This document shows positions 40,277-47,215 of a stretch of DNA of 64,000 nt, in pieces (the stretch's first letter is position 1; the number at the start of each line of letters is the position of its first letter). A program made the position numbers and the translations under genes. A model generated the notes under the pieces. The model was given only the letters and a program-made list of their open reading frames with translations. It had not been told where the DNA came from and searched no databases. The stretch is from Burkholderia sp. Bp8992 (GTDB taxonomy: Bacteria; Pseudomonadota; Gammaproteobacteria; Burkholderiales; Burkholderiaceae), in assembly GCF_003853705.1 (NCBI RefSeq), contig NZ_QTQI01000007.1:186001-250000 (forward strand). Reading direction: 5' to 3'.

Positions 40277-41479
40277 TCAGACCGTCGTGTCGATGATGCC
40301 CGGGATCTTCACGTCCGGGTTCACGTCCGCGTCGTAGTCGACACCGGCGATCTCGAAGCCGAACAGGCGCAGGAACTCGGTCTTGTAGCCCGCGAAGTCG
40401 GTCATCTCGTACAGGTTCTCGTTCGTCACGTGGTCCCACATCGCGACGACCTTCGCCTGCACCTGCGGGTCGAGTTCCTTGTAGTCGGCGCGCAGGCGGC
40501 CTTCTTCGTCGACGTGCGGCGTCGCGCCGTACAGGCTGTCCTTCAGGAGCCCGTATACCTGCTCGATGCAGCCTTCGTGCGTGCCGGCTTCCTTCATCAC
40601 CTTGAACAGCAGCGACAGGTACAGCGGCATCATCGGGATCGCCGAGCTGGCCTGCGTGACCACGGCCTTCAGCACCGACACGCGGGCGTCGCCGCCGTGC
40701 GCGGCCAGCTTGTCGCGGATCGACCGCACCTTCTTGTCGAGATCCTTCTTCGCTTCGCCGATCGAGCCGTTCCAGTAGATGTCGTGCGTGATCTGCTCGC
40801 CGAGATACGTGAACGCGGTGGTCTTTGCGCCGTCGGCCAGCACGCCGGCGTCGGCCAGCGCGTCGATCCACATCTGCCAGTCCTCGCCGCCCATCACGGC
40901 GACGGTGCCGTCGATCTCTTCCTGCGTCGCCGGTTCGAGCGACACTTCGCGGATCACTTCCTTGTCGGTGTCGAGGCCGCGGAACGTGACGGCCTTGCCG
41001 ATCGGCTTGAGCGTCGAGCTGATGGTTTCGCCCGTCTTCGGGTGCGTGCGACGCGGTGCCGCGAGGCTGTAGACGACCAGGTCGACCTTGCCGAGATCCT
41101 GCTTGATGGTGTCGATCGTGACCTGCTTGACCTTGTCGGAGAATGCGTCGCCGTTGATGCTGCGCGCATAGAGCCCCTTTTCAGCGGCGAATTTCTCGAA
41201 CGCGGCGCTGTTGTACCAGCCGGCCGTGCCGGGCTTCGTCTCGCTGCCGGCGCGCTCGAAGAACACGCCGAGCGTGTCCGCGCCCGAGCCGAATGCGGCC
41301 GAGATCCGGGCGGCGAGGCCGTAGCCGGTCGACGCGCCGATCACGAGCACCTTTTTCGGGCCGTTGGCGATCGGGCCGTGCGAAGTCACGTAGTCGATCT
41401 GTTCCTTGACGTTGGCTTCGCAGCCGACGGGATGAGTCGTCACGCAGATGAAGCCACGCACGCGCGGTTTGATGATCAT
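40277..41479 (-). CDS. fabV: Trans-2-enoyl-CoA/ACP reductase FabV
   Basis: A 400-residue enoyl-thioester reductase that saturates the double bond in the last step of fatty-acid elongation with NADH. The NAD site is [14 protein letters not shown] (residues 47-60) and the catalytic pair is Tyr235 and Lys244 (Y-x8-K), the hallmark of FabV as opposed to FabI. Length and N-terminus ([20 protein letters not shown]) match the family. FabV enzymes are naturally triclosan-tolerant. It is a single gene, divergent from the GbsR-type regulator. Confidence 0.95.
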
Positions 41480-41592: not shown

Positions 41593-41616
41593 TTATTTCT
41601 CTCTTGACAGAAATAA
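41593..41616. promoter_or_regulatory. Operator copy 1 for the GbsR-type regulator
   Basis: TTATTTCT (41593-41600) and AGAAATAA (41609-41616) are perfect 8-bp inverted arms around an 8-base spacer. TTGACA at 41604-41609 lies inside it, with TAAATT 17 bases downstream, so the palindrome covers the -35 region of the regulator's own promoter. A second copy precedes the downstream operon. Confidence 0.7.
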
Positions 41617-41639
41617 CTGAAATGAATAAATTTGCCGAC

Positions 41640-42173
41640 ATGGAACTCACACCGATCGCCGAACGATTCATTCTCCACTGGGGCGAAATGGGCTCGCGGT
41701 GGGGCGTCAACCGCACCGTCTCGCAGATTCACGCGCTGCTCTACCTGGCCGGGCGGCCGGTCGCGGCCGACGAGATCGCCGAGACGCTCAACGTCGCGCG
41801 CTCCAACGTCAGCACGAGCCTGAAGGAGCTGCAGGCGTGGCGCCTCGCGAAGGTCGTGCACGTGCTGGGCGATCGCCGCGACCACTTCGAGACGTCGACC
41901 GACATCTGGGAGTTGTTCAAGCTGATCGTCGAAGGGCGGCGGCAGCGCGAGATCGAGCCGACGCTCACGGTGTTGCGCGACTGCCTGACGAATCCGGAGA
42001 TCGCGAACGAGAGCCGCGAGACCGAACAGCGCATTCGCGACACGCTGCAGTTCGTCGAGACGCTCACGACGTGGTCGGACGAGATGCTGCGGCTCAAGCC
42101 CGATACGCTGATGAAGGCGCTCGGCATCGGCGCGAAGATCAGCCAGACAGTCAGGCGCAAGCCGTCGAAGTAA
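41640..42173 (+). CDS. GbsR/MarR-family transcriptional regulator
   Basis: A 177-residue regulator of the GbsR type: LTPIAERFILHWGEMGSRWGVNRTVSQIHALLYLAGRP is the family's N-terminus, followed by the winged helix ADEIAETLNVARSNVSTSLKELQAW and a C-terminal helix pair. ATG 41640 matches the family start and lies seven bases after a TAAATT -10 candidate, so the transcript may be nearly leaderless. An upstream ATG at 41622 would add six residues. A terminator and a second operator copy separate it from the operon it probably controls. Confidence 0.85.
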   Translation: MELTPIAERFILHWGEMGSRWGVNRTVSQIHALLYLAGRPVAADEIAETLNVARSNVSTSLKELQAWRLAKVVHVLGDRRDHFETSTDIWELFKLIVEGRRQREIEPTLTVLRDCLTNPEIANESRETEQRIRDTLQFVETLTTWSDEMLRLKPDTLMKALGIGAKISQTVRRKPSK

Positions 42174-42187
42174 GCGGTAGCGGAAGT

Positions 42188-42210
42188 GCGGGCGGACAGC
42201 CCGCTTTTTT
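42188..42210 (+). terminator. Terminator after the GbsR-type gene
   Basis: GCGGGC (42188-42193) and GCCCGC (42199-42204) form a 6-bp stem with a GGACA loop and a run of six T residues. It lies 14 bases after the regulator's stop codon, making the following operon a separate transcription unit. Confidence 0.8.
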
Positions 42211-42219
42211 CGGGATCGA

Positions 42220-42241
42220 TATTTCTGTCTGTACAGAAATA
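42220..42241. promoter_or_regulatory. Operator copy 2, before the four-gene operon
   Basis: TATTTCTGT (42220-42228) and ACAGAAATA (42233-42241) are perfect 9-bp arms around CTGT. The site shares ATTTCT and ACAGAAATAACTG with operator copy 1 and lies 20 bases before the first start codon of the operon. Confidence 0.72.
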
Positions 42242-42261
42242 ACTGTAAATAGAGGATAAAA

Positions 42262-43584
42262 ATGAACGCGGCCTTGCCGTCGACCTGCCCGCCCGAGCGT
42301 ACCGGCGCACGCGGCATGACCGTGCTCGTCTGCGGCGCGAACGGCTTCATCGGGCGGGCGCTGTGCGCGCAGCTCGAAGCCGGCGGCCATCGCGTGCTGC
42401 GCGGCGTGCGTCACGCGGCCGGCCCGCGCGACGTCGCGATCGACTTCGCGAGGGACGTCGATCCGGCCGCGTGGCTCGCGCGGCTGAAGGGTGTCGACGT
42501 GGTGATCAACGCGGTCGGCATGCTGGCCGATCGACGCGGCGCGACGCTAGACGCCGTGCATCGCGCCGCGCCGTGCGCGCTCTTTACCGCGTGCTGCCTT
42601 GCCGGCGTGCGGCGCGTGATCCAGGTCTCGGCGCTCGGTGTCGAGCGCGGCGATACGCGGTACTTCGCGAGCAAGCACGCGGCCGACCGCTTCCTGCAGA
42701 CGCTGCCGATCGATTTCCGCATCGTGCGTCCCGCGCTCGTCTACGGCACGGCCGGCACGTCGGCGCGGTTTTTCCGGATGCTCGCGAGCCTGCCCGTGCA
42801 GGTGCTGCCGGCGGGCGGCCGTCAGCGGCTGCGCCCCGTGCATGTCGACGATCTCGCCGAAGTCGTCGCGCGGCTCGTCGTGCAACCGGGCGATGCGCCG
42901 GCGGCCGGCAGCCGGGTGATCGACGTGGTCGGCAACGACGAAGTCGAATACCGCGAGATGCTGGCCGGCTATCGTGCCGCGCTGGGGTTCCCGCCGGCTG
43001 CCCGCGTGTCGCTGCCGGGCCCGCTGGCCGGCGCGGCGGCCATGCTGTCCGGCATGCTGCCGGGCGCGATGTTCACGCGCGACACGTGGACGATGCTGCG
43101 CGGCGGCAACACCGGCGATCCGGCGGCCACCGCGGCCGTGCTCGGCCGGCCGCCGCGCGGCATCGGCAGCTTCATCGGCGCGGATGCCGCCGCACTGCTG
43201 CGTCGCGACGCGCTCGCGATGTGGCGGCGCCCGTTGCTGCGGGGCGCACTCGCGATCGTGTGGATCTGGACGGCGATCGTCAGTGCGTTCGTCCATCCGC
43301 TGCACGCGAGCCTCGCGCTGCTCGCGCCTGCGCACCTGACGGGGCTGCCTGCGCTGATCGCGCTCTACGCGGCCAGCGCGCTGGATTTCGCGTTCGGCAT
43401 CGCGACCGTTGCCGCGCCGTCGCGGCGGCTGTGGGCCGCGCAAGCGGCACTGATCGTCGCGTACTCGGCCGTCATCGCGGTCACGATGCCCGGCCTGTTG
43501 GCCGAACCGTTCGGCCCCGTGCTCAAGAACGTGCCGATTCTCGCGATCCTGTTGATCCTTTTTTCAGAAGAAGAACAAGCATGA
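42262..43584 (+). CDS. NAD(P)-binding SDR with C-terminal DoxX-like membrane domain
   Basis: A 440-residue fusion. Residues about 18-300 form an atypical SDR with the loop CGANGFIG, RVIQVSALGVERGD and IVRPALVYGT. The classical YxxxK is replaced by YFASK in the right place. Residues about 310-440 hold four hydrophobic segments of a DoxX-like domain. It is probably attached to the inner membrane with the SDR part in the cytoplasm. The start at 42262 follows AGAGGA. It heads the operon and overlaps the next gene by ATGA. Confidence 0.82.
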   Translation: MNAALPSTCPPERTGARGMTVLVCGANGFIGRALCAQLEAGGHRVLRGVRHAAGPRDVAIDFARDVDPAAWLARLKGVDVVINAVGMLADRRGATLDAVHRAAPCALFTACCLAGVRRVIQVSALGVERGDTRYFASKHAADRFLQTLPIDFRIVRPALVYGTAGTSARFFRMLASLPVQVLPAGGRQRLRPVHVDDLAEVVARLVVQPGDAPAAGSRVIDVVGNDEVEYREMLAGYRAALGFPPAARVSLPGPLAGAAAMLSGMLPGAMFTRDTWTMLRGGNTGDPAATAAVLGRPPRGIGSFIGADAAALLRRDALAMWRRPLLRGALAIVWIWTAIVSAFVHPLHASLALLAPAHLTGLPALIALYAASALDFAFGIATVAAPSRRLWAAQAALIVAYSAVIAVTMPGLLAEPFGPVLKNVPILAILLILFSEEEQA

Positions 43585-44051
43585 ATACCTATCTCGTCAT
43601 CAAGGCGCTTCACATCCTGTCCTCGGTGCTGCTGGTCGGCACGGGGTTCGGCACCGCGTTCTACCTGTTCTTCGCGAACCGCACGCGGTCGGTGCCCGCG
43701 ATCGCGGCCGTGTCGCGGCTCGTGGTGCGCGCGGACTGGTGGTTCACGACGCCGGCCGTGATCTTCCAGCCGGCGTCCGGGCTGTGGCTCGCGCATACGG
43801 CCGGCTGGTCGTGGCATACGCCGTGGCTGCTCGCGTCGATCGTGCTGTATGCGGTCGCCGGTGCGTGCTGGCTGCCGGTCGTGTGGCTGCAGCTCGAACT
43901 TGCCTCGATGGCGAAGCTCGCGCACGCCAACGGCGACGCCGCATTGCCCGAGCGCTACTGGCGCTACGCGAAGCGGTGGGAACTGCTCGGCTATCCGGCG
44001 TTCTTCGCGATGCTGACCGTCTATTTCCTGATGGTGGTCAAGCCGATGTAG
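43581..44051 (+). CDS. DUF2269-family membrane protein
   Basis: A 156-residue integral membrane protein with about four helices: IKALHILSSVLLVGTGFGTAFYLFF, then RADWWFTTPAVIFQPASGLWLA, and a C-terminal helix ending VYFLMVVKP. His and Trp residues in the helices recall a possible heme or quinone site, but no function is established for the family. The start overlaps the upstream stop (ATGA). Confidence 0.82.
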   Translation: MNTYLVIKALHILSSVLLVGTGFGTAFYLFFANRTRSVPAIAAVSRLVVRADWWFTTPAVIFQPASGLWLAHTAGWSWHTPWLLASIVLYAVAGACWLPVVWLQLELASMAKLAHANGDAALPERYWRYAKRWELLGYPAFFAMLTVYFLMVVKPM

Positions 44052-44153
44052 GCGTGTCGCCGCCGCGCGGGGCCGGCGCGGCGGCGACACATCCCGAAAA
44101 GCAGTCGATCGATCGCTTCATGATGTCTGCAAAAACAAAAAGGAGTACGAAGC

Positions 44154-45023
44154 ATGGGCGCAAGTGAATTGGTTCTTTACTTCGACGGACGCTGTCCGTT
44201 ATGCGTCGCGGAAATACGGCGTCTCGGGGCCCGCGACGCGCGGCACCGGCTGGCGTTCGTCGATATCGCCGAGCCGGGTTTCGACCCGGCGCCGCTGGGC
44301 GTCGACCTGCCCGCGCTGAATCGCGAGCTGCACGCGCGCCTGCCCGACGGACGCATGCTGACCGGCGTCGACAGCATCATGGCCGCCCATGCGCTGGCCG
44401 GGCGCCGCTGGCTCGTCTGGCTGCTGCGCGTGCCGGCGATGCGCGCCGCGCTCGCGCCGCTGTATCGCCGCTTCGCACGTAACCGGTACGCGGTTTCGCG
44501 CTGGCTCGGATATCGCGCCGAGGTGTGTCATGACGACGCGGCGTGCGGTATCGGCGAGGCCGCCGAAAGCAGGGAAGCAGACCGCCCGGCGCGCGACACG
44601 CTGCGACGCATCGTCGTGAACTGGATGATGGCGGCAGCGATCGTGCACCTGCTGGTCGGCGCAGTCGTGCCGTGGGTGGCTGGCGCGCCGTGGCTCGATG
44701 CCTATCACCGCGGCATCGAGCTGTATTTCCGGGCGGGAACGATGCCCGATGCGGCGCATGCGCAGCAGATCTGGTGGATGTCGCTGATCGGCGCGACGGT
44801 GCAGTGCGCGTCGGTCTGGATGATCGCGCTGGTCCACCTCGGCAACCGGTTGCGGAAACGGGAAGTGTGGGGCTGGCTGCTGGCCGGCCTGTTGATCTGG
44901 GCGCCGCAGGACATGCTGTTGTCGTGGCAGGCGCATGTGTGGGGCCATGTGGCGATCGACGTCGTCGCGCTTGTCGCGATGGTGCCGCCGCTGGTCTGGC
45001 TGTGGAGGAGGGATACCGAATGA
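44154..45023 (+). CDS. DCC-family thiol-disulfide oxidoreductase with membrane domain
   Basis: A 289-residue protein. The first 130 residues are a DCC (DUF393) domain with FDGRCPLC, in which Cys14 and Cys17 form the redox-active CxxC. The rest has about four membrane helices (NWMMAAAIVHLLVGAVVPWVAG and onwards), so the thiol domain is tethered to the membrane. The start follows AAGGAG. The last codons overlap the next gene. The 100-base gap upstream shows no terminator. Confidence 0.82.
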   Translation: MGASELVLYFDGRCPLCVAEIRRLGARDARHRLAFVDIAEPGFDPAPLGVDLPALNRELHARLPDGRMLTGVDSIMAAHALAGRRWLVWLLRVPAMRAALAPLYRRFARNRYAVSRWLGYRAEVCHDDAACGIGEAAESREADRPARDTLRRIVVNWMMAAAIVHLLVGAVVPWVAGAPWLDAYHRGIELYFRAGTMPDAAHAQQIWWMSLIGATVQCASVWMIALVHLGNRLRKREVWGWLLAGLLIWAPQDMLLSWQAHVWGHVAIDVVALVAMVPPLVWLWRRDTE

Positions 45024-46519
45024 ACACCTTGCCTGCTTTCGACTGGGCGCTCAACCTGCTGATCGTGCAGGGCGCGATGGGCGCATTCGATACGCTTTAT
45101 CACCACGAACTCACGCAGGACCTGCCGCACAGCCCGCGCGCACGGCTCGAACTGGCGATTCACGCGGTGCGTTCCGTGCTCTACGGCCTCGTGTTCGCAT
45201 CGATCGCGAACGTCGCGTTTCACGGCGCGTGGGTTGCGGCCCTCGCTGCGGTCGTGCTCGTCGAAGTGGCGCTGACGTTGTGGGACTTCGTCGTCGAAGA
45301 CCAGAGCCGCAAGCTGCCGGCGACCGAGCGCGTGTTGCATACGCTGCTGGCCGTCAACGGCGGCGCGTTGTTCGGGATGATCGCGATGCAGCTTGCGGCC
45401 TGGGCGCACGAGCCGACCGCGCTGCAGCCGCTCGACCTCGGCTGGCGCGGCTGGCTGCTCAGCCTGTTCGCCGTCGGCGTGACCGTGTCGGGCATCCGCG
45501 ACGGGATCGCCGCGTGCCGCATCGCGCACCGCGCGCCGGCCGCCAATCCGTTCGCGGGGCAGCCGGCCGGCAACGTGCTCGTGACCGGCGGGACCGGCTT
45601 CATCGGCGAAACGCTCGTGAACCAGTTGCTCGCTGCCGGGCACACGGTCACGCTGCTGGCGCGCGATCCGCTGCGTGCGGCCTACCTGTTCCACGGCCGC
45701 GTGCGCAGCGTGACGTCCGCCGACCAGTTGCAGCCGCACGAGCGCTTCGACACGGTCATCAATCTCGCTGGGGCGCCGGTGCTGGGCGCGCGCTGGAGCA
45801 AGCGCCGGCAGGCGGTGCTGCTCGCGAGCCGCGTCGGCGTCACGCAGGCGCTGATGCGCTGGGTCGACACCGCCGAGGTCAAGCCGCGCACGTGGATCCA
45901 GGCGTCGGCGATCGGCTATTACGGCGTGCGGCCGGGTGACGAACGGCTCGACGAGGGCAGCCGCGCCGGCACCGGCTTCATGGCCGAACTGTGCCGGCAG
46001 TGGGAGCAGTCCGCGCAGCCGCTCGAACGTCACGGCGTGCGCTCGGTGGTGCTGCGGCTGGGTATCGTGTTCGGCCCCGGCGGCGCGCTGCGCCCGATGC
46101 TGCTGCCGCATTACTTCGGGATGGGCGGACGATTCGGCGACGGCGCGCAGGTGATGAGCTGGATTCACCGGGACGACGTGCTGCGGATCGTCGCACGTGC
46201 GATGTCGAACGCAGGCATGCACGGTGTCTACAACGCGGTCGCACCGGTGGCAGTGACCCAGCGCGAGTTCGTGCAGGTCGTGACGAAGGTGCTGCGCCGC
46301 CCCGCGTGGCTGCACGTTCCGGCCGCGCCGCTGCGCACCGCGATGGGCGAGATGGCCGAGTTGCTGCTCGACGGGCAGCGCGTGATGCCGGCGCGGCTGC
46401 ATCGGGACGGATTCATGTTCCGGTTCCCGACGGCCGAGCACGCGCTGCGTGACCTGACGAATCGGCCGCACACCGATTTCGCGCCCGCGGCCTGCCGTTT
46501 GCCGCGAGGTCGTGTATAA
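45020..46519 (+). CDS. TIGR01777-family epimerase with N-terminal membrane domain
   Basis: A 499-residue fusion. Residues 1-180 are a membrane domain with about four helices (ALNLLIVQGAMGAFDTLYHHELTQDLPH; a His-rich loop). Residues about 188-490 are an SDR39U1/TIGR01777 epimerase: VLVTGGTGFIGETLVNQLLAAGH, NLAGAPVLGARW, QASAIGYYGVRPGDE, RLGIVFGPGG and the DUF1731 tail with PAAPLRTAMGEMAELLLDGQRV. Most members lack a membrane part. The partner substrates are unknown. It is the last gene of the operon. Confidence 0.83.
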   Translation: MNTLPAFDWALNLLIVQGAMGAFDTLYHHELTQDLPHSPRARLELAIHAVRSVLYGLVFASIANVAFHGAWVAALAAVVLVEVALTLWDFVVEDQSRKLPATERVLHTLLAVNGGALFGMIAMQLAAWAHEPTALQPLDLGWRGWLLSLFAVGVTVSGIRDGIAACRIAHRAPAANPFAGQPAGNVLVTGGTGFIGETLVNQLLAAGHTVTLLARDPLRAAYLFHGRVRSVTSADQLQPHERFDTVINLAGAPVLGARWSKRRQAVLLASRVGVTQALMRWVDTAEVKPRTWIQASAIGYYGVRPGDERLDEGSRAGTGFMAELCRQWEQSAQPLERHGVRSVVLRLGIVFGPGGALRPMLLPHYFGMGGRFGDGAQVMSWIHRDDVLRIVARAMSNAGMHGVYNAVAPVAVTQREFVQVVTKVLRRPAWLHVPAAPLRTAMGEMAELLLDGQRVMPARLHRDGFMFRFPTAEHALRDLTNRPHTDFAPAACRLPRGRV

Positions 46520-46591: not shown

Positions 46592-47215
46592 ATGCTGCAC
46601 ATCCTCGGCAAGATCCCGTCCATCAACGTCCGCAAGGTGCTGTGGCTGTGCACCGAACTGAACCTCCCGTTCGAACAGGAAGACTGGGGTGCGGGCTTCC
46701 GCACGACCAACGATCCGGCCTATCTCGCACTGAATCCGAACGCGCTCGTGCCCGTCATCAAGGACGACGACTTCGTGCTCTGGGAGTCGAACACGATCAT
46801 TCGCTATCTCGCGAACCGCTACGGCGGCGATGCGCTGTATCCGGCCGAGCCGCAGGCGCGTGCGCGGGTCGACCAGTGGATCGACTGGCAGGGGGCGGAC
46901 CTGAACCGCTCGTGGGTCGGCGCGTTCCTCGGCCTCGTGCGCAAATCGCCCGATCATCAGGATCCGGCCGGCATCGCGCAGTCGATCGCAGGCTGGACGA
47001 AGCACATGCACGTGCTGAACACCCAGCTCGAAAAGACCGGCGCGTACGTGGCCGGCGATACGTTCACGCTTGCGGACATTCCGATCGGCCTGTCGGTGAA
47101 CCGCTGGTTCGGCACGCCGTTCGAGCATCCGGATCTGCCGGCGGTGTCGCGCTACATCGAGCGTCTCGCGACGCGTGAAGGTTTCAAGCAATACGCAGGC
47201 AGCGCGAATCCGTAA
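46592..47215 (+). CDS. Glutathione S-transferase family protein
   Basis: A 207-residue GST. The N-terminal thioredoxin fold reads [33 protein letters not shown] with Ser as likely catalytic residue, then [25 protein letters not shown] (cis-Pro and the ESxT turn). The helical domain has [16 protein letters not shown]. The start 46592 follows AAGGAG. It is separate from the upstream operon. The class resembles beta/theta-like bacterial GSTs; the substrate is unknown. Confidence 0.87.

Follow-up and report, generated by a model that had tools for sequence, protein, structure and literature searches.

Among the regulators closest to the one studied here, CydE of Alishewanella and CioR of Chromobacterium violaceum belong to the same family by their papers' descriptions and by their cytochrome bd neighbours, and both are reported to repress their own operons. 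The DNase footprint of CydE is TATTTCAGAAATTTCTGAAAGTTCA (PMC6096048); DNA binding by CioR is reported to be abolished by zinc and iron, and cyanide to induce in vivo. The choline repressors GbsR, OpuAR and CudC share the broad family, with its MarR-like winged helix, and a family survey lists GbsR members with unassigned neighbours (PMC6207618). Here we describe a GbsR-type regulator of Burkholderia sp. Bp8992 that lies, in a 64,000-nucleotide stretch of contig NZ_QTQI01000007.1 (the window), before genes for an SDR–DoxX fusion, a DUF2269 membrane protein, a DCC thiol–disulphide oxidoreductase and a membrane TIGR01777 epimerase. An initial annotation had read this as a GbsR-controlled four-gene membrane redox operon with matching operators. 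Comparison with relatives bears out the regulator family, the paired operators and the gene identities, and suggests a locally autoregulated module in which two of the four genes are optional.

Matching operators flank the regulator

By sequence, the regulator falls in the GbsR family: it matches PF12802 (MarR_2) at 39 bits (cut-off 27), its best solved relative is 1ku9 (MJ223; E 2e-19), and its relatives are labelled 'GbsR/MarR family' on many plasmid records. 'GbsR' is here a family label, not orthology. As initially annotated, the same palindrome lies before the regulator (operator 1) and before the operon (operator 2; Table 1), as two near-identical copies with the consensus TTTCTsTNNNNACAGAAA, and the pair stands out from shuffled sequence. 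The pattern TTTCTSTNNNNACAGAAA, with up to three mismatches, gave 7 strand-matches in the window against 0.73 ± 1.11 in 100 shuffles (largest 5); the matches away from the two operators all carry three mismatches. Base frequencies across relatives reveal more conserved positions over about eight bases just downstream of operator 1. The operators share an 18-bp TTTC-N10-GAAA shape with the CydE footprint (PMC6096048).

Genome-wide operator counts come from relatives, not from the Bp8992 genome itself. With up to one mismatch, TTTCTGTNNNNACAGAAA has exactly two sites, both at the locus, in 22 of 25 Burkholderia genomes; the remaining three are without the regulator and have zero sites, and a backwards control pattern gave 0 or 1 match per genome in the same 25. 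The same scan of 16 genomes of other families returned 0–3 sites each; in G041 and G053 the two sites both lie by the regulator. Consistent with local autoregulation, the operators of the Burkholderia relatives scanned are confined to their own locus and one of them overlaps the regulator's own predicted promoter.

A predicted leaderless regulator transcript

A promoter scan of the window returned a single sigma-70 site (0.6 expected in shuffles), in which the TTGACA of the regulator's −35 box forms part of the right half of operator 1 and the start codon at 41640 is separated from the −10 box by 7 nucleotides. This architecture recurs among relatives. TTGACA lies inside operator 1 in 45 of 49 non-redundant upstream regions (operator-to-start distance 42–46); the best −10 hexamer at a spacing of 16–18 nucleotides has a mean of 4.02 of 6 matches (2.72 ± 0.13 in 500 shuffles); and a −10 box with at least 4 of 6 matches, A2 and T6 occurs in 82% of regions, compared with 9% (maximum 24%) in 500 shuffles. 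The −10 box ends 6–7 nucleotides before the ATG in 41 of 45 regions. Shine–Dalgarno-like motifs precede 10% of the regulator starts in the 49-region set; at the operon genes the figures are 67% for DUF2269, 73% for SDR, 78% for DCC and 80% for TIGR01777 (10 rows). A second upstream group (19 non-redundant regions, distance 24–36) has TTGACA in 1 of 19 and a Shine–Dalgarno motif in 21%.

Because the −10 box ends so close to the start and Shine–Dalgarno motifs are few, the regulator transcript is predicted to be leaderless in most lineages. Its start is most likely at 41640 and not at the upstream ATG at 41622, an equivalent of which was found in just 14 of 30 Burkholderia loci. Leaderless transcripts enriched for regulators appear in a 5′ end map of Burkholderia cenocepacia (PMC4603805), and leaderless transcripts enriched for transcription genes are reported in Cupriavidus metallidurans (PMC7563307), so the present case would be a good example and not a new kind. 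Cysteine-based redox sensing by the regulator was considered and set aside, as other members of the clade do not share its sole cysteine consistently.

Two regulator clades differ in operator and neighbours

The regulator family was found in 61 of 250 genomes of the order. Besides the nearest genome there were 80 regulator matches, of which 61 loci form the order sample (the 19 left out were mostly low-scoring). These loci divide into a clade with HWGEM/QIHALL/ARSNVS (HW; 34 loci), which includes the Burkholderia regulators, and a clade with HFGEM/QIYALL/SRSNVS (HF; 27 loci). In a quick tree, built without CydE and CioR themselves and without a choline-type member, the HF clade is one branch (SH-aLRT 100) that excludes 101 HW rows, three Burkholderia rows among them. 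In the fetched stretches, at least one of SDR–DoxX, DUF2269, DCC and TIGR01777 lies near the regulator in 30 of 34 HW loci and in 0 of 27 HF loci, whereas cytochrome bd adjoins the regulator in 26 of 27 HF loci and in none of the HW loci counted. The regulator studied here appears, on this basis, not to belong to the cytochrome-bd-linked (CydE/CioR-type) clade, which is recognised by its cytochrome bd neighbours. It further differs from CydE and CioR in its predicted leaderless transcript and in the second operator downstream.

The operators differ as well, with TTTCTGT-N4-ACAGAAA beside HW/QIHALL/ARSN regulators and TTTCA...TGAAA beside the cytochrome-bd-linked HF/QIYALL/SRSN relatives. HF-clade sites start with TTTCA in all 19 loci (of 27) in which TTTC-N10-GAAA was found. 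The fifth operator base is T in 83% of upstream and 94% of downstream HW sites (non-redundant), a frequency biased to T because these sites were picked with a consensus having T there (up to two mismatches), whereas the HF search left the base free. Operator and regulator thus seem to have diverged between the two clades, in a single split.

Palindromes and genes are both kept far beyond Burkholderia. A set of named loci, drawn from the best 80 of at least 582 confirmed matches, covers Achromobacter, Bordetella, Cupriavidus, Azoarcus, Dechloromonas, Chromobacterium, Lysobacter, Methyloglobulus, Halothiobacillaceae, Magnetococcales and Zetaproteobacteria; 66 of its loci, those outside L181–L194, were counted, among them L196, Burkholderia sp. 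Ax-1724 by label. With up to two mismatches allowed, the two operators occur together in all 30 Burkholderia loci, in 23 of 34 HW order-sample loci and in 53 of the 66 named loci, and a partner gene adjoins the regulator in all 30 Burkholderia loci and in 62 of the 66. Carriers of both operators include Paraburkholderia bryophila and an Undibacterium species, and a regulator at 70% occurs in Cupriavidus metallidurans. The sets overlap (L120 and L213, for instance, come from one contig, and several of L181–L194 equal L090–L119), and a redundancy filter was applied in the promoter and operator base-frequency counts, not in the locus and partner counts.

Gene order and membership vary outside Burkholderia. 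L162 and L163 have the order regulator–DCC–operator–SDR–DUF2269–TIGR01777–DUF4166, and SDR is divergent in, for example, L131, L247 and L252. In six loci (L195–L200) DCC lies on the upstream side of the regulator and is divergent from it, with two operators spaced by about 50 bp in the intervening gap, so that an operator accompanies DCC. SDR and DoxX are separate adjoining genes in L218, L225 and L242, and DCC and TIGR01777 form a single open reading frame in L259, which together support functional coupling. In two Rhodocyclales-type loci (L208, L217), a protein of about 510–520 amino acids 3′ of DCC resembles, by eye, a radical-SAM/B12-type enzyme.

A conserved core and an optional pair in Burkholderia

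The regulator is present in 30 of 37 Burkholderia genomes, at a locus that is syntenic with the same flanks throughout. Conservation of the regulator, both operators and the first two genes holds in full (SDR–DoxX in all 30 loci, DUF2269 in all 29 that are assessable; L101 meets a contig end and is not assessable beyond SDR–DoxX, hence the denominator of 29). The four-gene operon does not hold as initially drawn: DCC and TIGR01777 are both full-length or nearly so in only 14 of 29 loci and both absent in 10, and remnants alone are left in 2 (L098, L117). The other three (L094, L099, L104) keep TIGR01777 beside a DCC gene that is without its N-terminal CxxC part and retains the C-terminal part, which suggests a role for the latter in its own right. 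DUF2269 and a TIGR01777 orthologue are both missing from the seven Burkholderia genomes that have no regulator, where the SDR matches are weak and generic; with no operator sites in the three regulator-less genomes scanned for them, the set appears to be gained and lost together.

Features of a proposed membrane redox module

Pfam and, for the last gene, the TIGR01777 model agree with the four gene identities as first annotated, and the membrane redox make-up (DoxX_3, CxxC DCC, SDR and membrane domains) was likewise recovered. The SDR part of SDR–DoxX looks active, since its GxxGxxG motif and S123, Y134 (0.94) and K138 are conserved; the DoxX-type membrane domain, a feature shared with DoxX thiosulphate:quinone oxidoreductase, is PF13781 (DoxX_3) at 78 bits. 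The CxxC cysteines of DCC, C14 and C17, are conserved at 0.98 in 56 non-redundant rows, and its C-terminal extension (residues about 126–289) has no Pfam match.

DUF2269 has a confident four-helix model in which K8, H11, R34 and D52 are invariant. Compared by hhalign with the profile of HemJ (PgdH2, UPF0093), a membrane protoporphyrinogen oxidase, it aligns nearly full length over 133 columns (P 5e-5) with a probability of 67, below the usual level of certainty, and the two share K-x2-H-I in the first helix and KP at the end. Ten other comparisons gave P values of 0.0043 for PuuD and 0.039–0.67 for five unrelated membrane profiles and four one-side-reversed ones. A search against Pfam PF03653 (UPF0093) gave no match, PF10027 alone being returned at E ≤10, in a search where HMMER filters drop most matches above E of about 0.1. 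HemJ is a b-type haem protein. The nearest genome has a separate HemJ elsewhere, in a different operon. A review describes the cofactors of HemJ as not known. The membrane urate oxidase PuuD (DUF989) is weakly similar to the start of DUF2269 over 46 columns, a likeness also found in PMC4562309, which describes PuuD as having eight helices and a cytochrome c and acting in purine degradation, unlike DUF2269. An Allochromatium DUF2269 gene is listed among genes with lower expression (PMC11267869), which is uninformative here.

The TIGR01777 protein scores 311 bits against its model (cut-off 207) and shares its SDR domain with SDR39U1, ThyD and YfcH; the best solved match is 4b4o, SDR39U1 with NADPH. 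In contrast to these, it carries five predicted membrane helices before the SDR domain, with conserved His, Glu and Asp residues. Across 13 aligned rows, of which 8 are Burkholderia at 91% identity or more, there is no variation at H28, H29, E30, H48, D89, E93, D94 or H107; in 11 non-redundant rows H29, E30, D94 and H107 remain invariant, H48, D89 and E93 stand at 0.91 and H28 falls below 0.85. No Pfam family reaches its cut-off in this N-terminal domain, and among 299 genomes from the phylum 8 gave a match to it, two of them weakly. From the conserved residues, and with a model of moderate confidence there, we would guess at a metal site.

Locus layout and flanking genes

The SDR–DoxX and DUF2269 genes overlap by ATGA, as do DCC and TIGR01777 (Table 1). 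The terminator initially placed 3′ of the regulator is seen as a hairpin with a T-run. The hairpin is weak evidence taken alone (a terminator consensus scan of the window gave 4 sites, against 2.5 in shuffles); a five-T run lies within 40 nucleotides before operator 2 in 108 of 119 HW-clade loci having operator 2 (redundant loci included). The first 18 SDR codons (42262–42315) resemble what is left of a small membrane gene of about 120 amino acids that has been lost. Paraburkholderia-type loci (L196–L198, L200) have this gene in the space from operator 2 to SDR; other Burkholderia have a separate stub of 18–39 codons there (L108, L110–L112, L114, L117–L119; relation judged by eye).

Table 1 Features of the regulator locus, in window coordinates
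Feature	Position	Strand	Remarks
FabV	40277–41479		Divergent, upstream of regulator
Operator 1, TTTCTCTCTTGACAGAAA	41596–41613	+	Overlaps regulator −35 box; 30/30 Burkholderia loci
Predicted sigma-70 promoter of regulator	41604–41632	+	TTGACA 41604–41609, 17 nt, TAAATT 41627–41632
Regulator, MarR/GbsR type, HW clade	41640–42173	+	Pfam MarR_2; start re-assigned from 41622
Terminator-like hairpin and T-run	42188–42210 (hairpin scan match 42188–42204)	+	3′ of regulator
Operator 2, TTTCTGTCTGTACAGAAA	42222–42239	+	Before operon
SDR (NAD-binding/Epimerase) fused to DoxX_3	42262–43584	+	Pfam; alternative start 42316
DUF2269 membrane protein	43581–44051	+	Pfam; four predicted helices; invariant K8/H11
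DCC1-like thiol–disulphide oxidoreductase, CPLC	44154–45023	+	Pfam
TIGR01777-family SDR, Epimerase and DUF1731	45020–46519	+	Pfam; TIGR01777 model; five-helix N-terminal membrane domain
Glutathione S-transferase (GST)	46592–47215		Downstream of TIGR01777 gene

In Burkholderia the locus is flanked by FabV in 30 of 30 loci and by the downstream GST in 29 of 29 assessable ones. Among the loci fetched from outside the genus, FabV was not found, and the only GST matches, in L198 and L202, were weak at 26%. We regard GST as a neighbour specific to the genus, possibly co-transcribed, with no terminator-like site between it and the TIGR01777 gene.

A proposed mechanism and its alternatives

On balance we favour a model in which the regulator represses its own gene and, locally, a membrane redox module of the NAD(P)H/haem/quinone type, and we consider this full proposal probable, though well short of secure. 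The regulator, probably a dimeric MarR/GbsR-type repressor, would act at this locus alone: on operator 1 it would cover its own −35 box and limit its leaderless transcript, on operator 2, just upstream, it would limit the operon, and a ligand or chemical stress would release it. By analogy with CydE and CioR, the regulator may be expected to bind these sites and to repress rather than activate; their signals also lead us to expect stress on the respiratory membrane here. The SDR, with NAD(P)H and tethered to its DoxX-type domain, would work with DUF2269, a HemJ-like and probably b-haem- or quinone-handling membrane protein, and in some lineages the CxxC DCC protein and the membrane TIGR01777 reductase would form an optional second arm. 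The module would oxidise or reduce a membrane-soluble quinone, lipid or sulphur species, with the quinone pool and NAD(P)H as exchange partners, in answer to stress that harms the respiratory membrane. The regulatory side appears well supported by comparison, in the operators, their confinement, the promoter overlap and an occurrence in step with the genes; the chemistry of the module is what we infer.

Several observations weigh against this model. G050 has one operator site elsewhere besides the two at its regulator, G040, G045, G046 and G051 each have one operator-like site away from the regulator match, and G052 has two although it is without a regulator match. Operator 2 was not found, at up to two mismatches, in 11 of 34 HW order-sample loci, and several by-eye readings of the upstream regions gave no consistent operon promoter. 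Three loci (L254, L255, L260) pair the regulator with DCC and TIGR01777 but are without SDR–DoxX and DUF2269, and four of the 34 HW loci (L128, L130, L153, L160) are without any of the four genes, which are replaced in L153 and L160 by a methyltransferase-type gene. SoxY/SoxA-type genes occur in the stretches of four HW order-sample loci (L125, L131, L153, L160). These methyltransferase and Sox neighbours suggest that the target set of the HW clade is wider than one pathway. To these may be added the modest HemJ probability and the lack of a significant match between DUF2269 and solved structures.

Some of these neighbours, together with DUF4166, keep two other readings of the chemistry in play. 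The operon might tailor membrane lipids or isoprenoids through SDR–DoxX, TIGR01777 and DUF4166 (in some lineages a desaturase or methyltransferase), with DUF2269 as their membrane partner. DUF4166 lies 3′ of TIGR01777 in several loci and a DUF4166-type gene 3′ of DUF2269 in others, a desaturase-like and methyltransferase protein sits directly under the regulator in L153 with related methyltransferases in L129 and L160, and the constant divergent neighbour in Burkholderia, FabV, is a fatty-acid enzyme. However, the counts for the 30 Burkholderia loci include no DUF4166 match, FabV was not found in the loci from outside the genus, the HemJ-like profile of DUF2269 suggests a redox role, and to our knowledge the SDR–DoxX/DUF2269 pair has no lipid role, so that we rate this reading as rather unlikely. 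The regulator might instead sense sulphide, sulphane sulphur or thiosulphate, with the DoxX and DCC proteins handling it. DoxX-type and DCC families are tied to thiol and sulphur chemistry. CydE is reported to be derepressed by sulphate, with a target that confers sulphide resistance (PMC6096048). The Sox genes noted above favour such a system too, but they lie several genes off in L153 and L160, which makes the link loose, and the only cysteine of the regulator is not a conserved residue; a sulphur-stress role seems to us unlikely.

An osmotic signal, among the stresses initially suggested, would make the regulator choline-responsive like GbsR/OpuAR of Bacillus subtilis. It shares that broad family and matches the CudC choline-regulator model NF047500 weakly (47.4 bits, E 1.8e-12), yet this score is far below the curated cut-off of 218 bits, no betaine, Opu or other osmoprotection gene is among its immediate neighbours in the window, and its sister clade, in the tree described above, adjoins cytochrome bd; we regard an osmotic role as very improbable. 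The shared flanks and synteny within Burkholderia would also suit neighbours kept by common descent alone, with the palindromes serving another factor. Against this, operators and genes persist in other families and classes in which the regulator is 50–70% identical, the flanks differ and the gene order is rearranged, and the sites and DUF2269 are missing where the regulator is missing, which leaves that explanation barely credible.

Implications

The initial annotation also held that the pathway has no described function, and this agrees with the literature searched, in which the gene set was not found described and no paper was found joining two of the searched family names. The arrangement spans many soil and water bacteria and is not a new kind of regulation. 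Tentatively, and as a combination less likely than not, it may represent a third GbsR branch beside the osmotic and cytochrome-bd ones, with a TTTCTGT-N4-ACAGAAA operator, a mostly leaderless regulator and an undescribed membrane redox pathway of Beta-, Gamma- and Zetaproteobacteria, in which a HemJ-like haem DUF2269 and an NAD(P)H SDR–DoxX would be joined in some lineages by an optional arm whose TIGR01777 protein would have, as its N-terminal membrane domain, a new His/Glu/Asp metal-site enzyme.

The comparison links the uncharacterised families DUF2269, DCC, membrane-domain TIGR01777, DUF4166 and SDR–DoxX with a single clade of regulators whose operator is defined, and the way this operator differs from that of the cytochrome-bd relatives offers a clean case of regulator–operator divergence. 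One reporter or binding assay could expose the signal and give these widespread families their first biological context.

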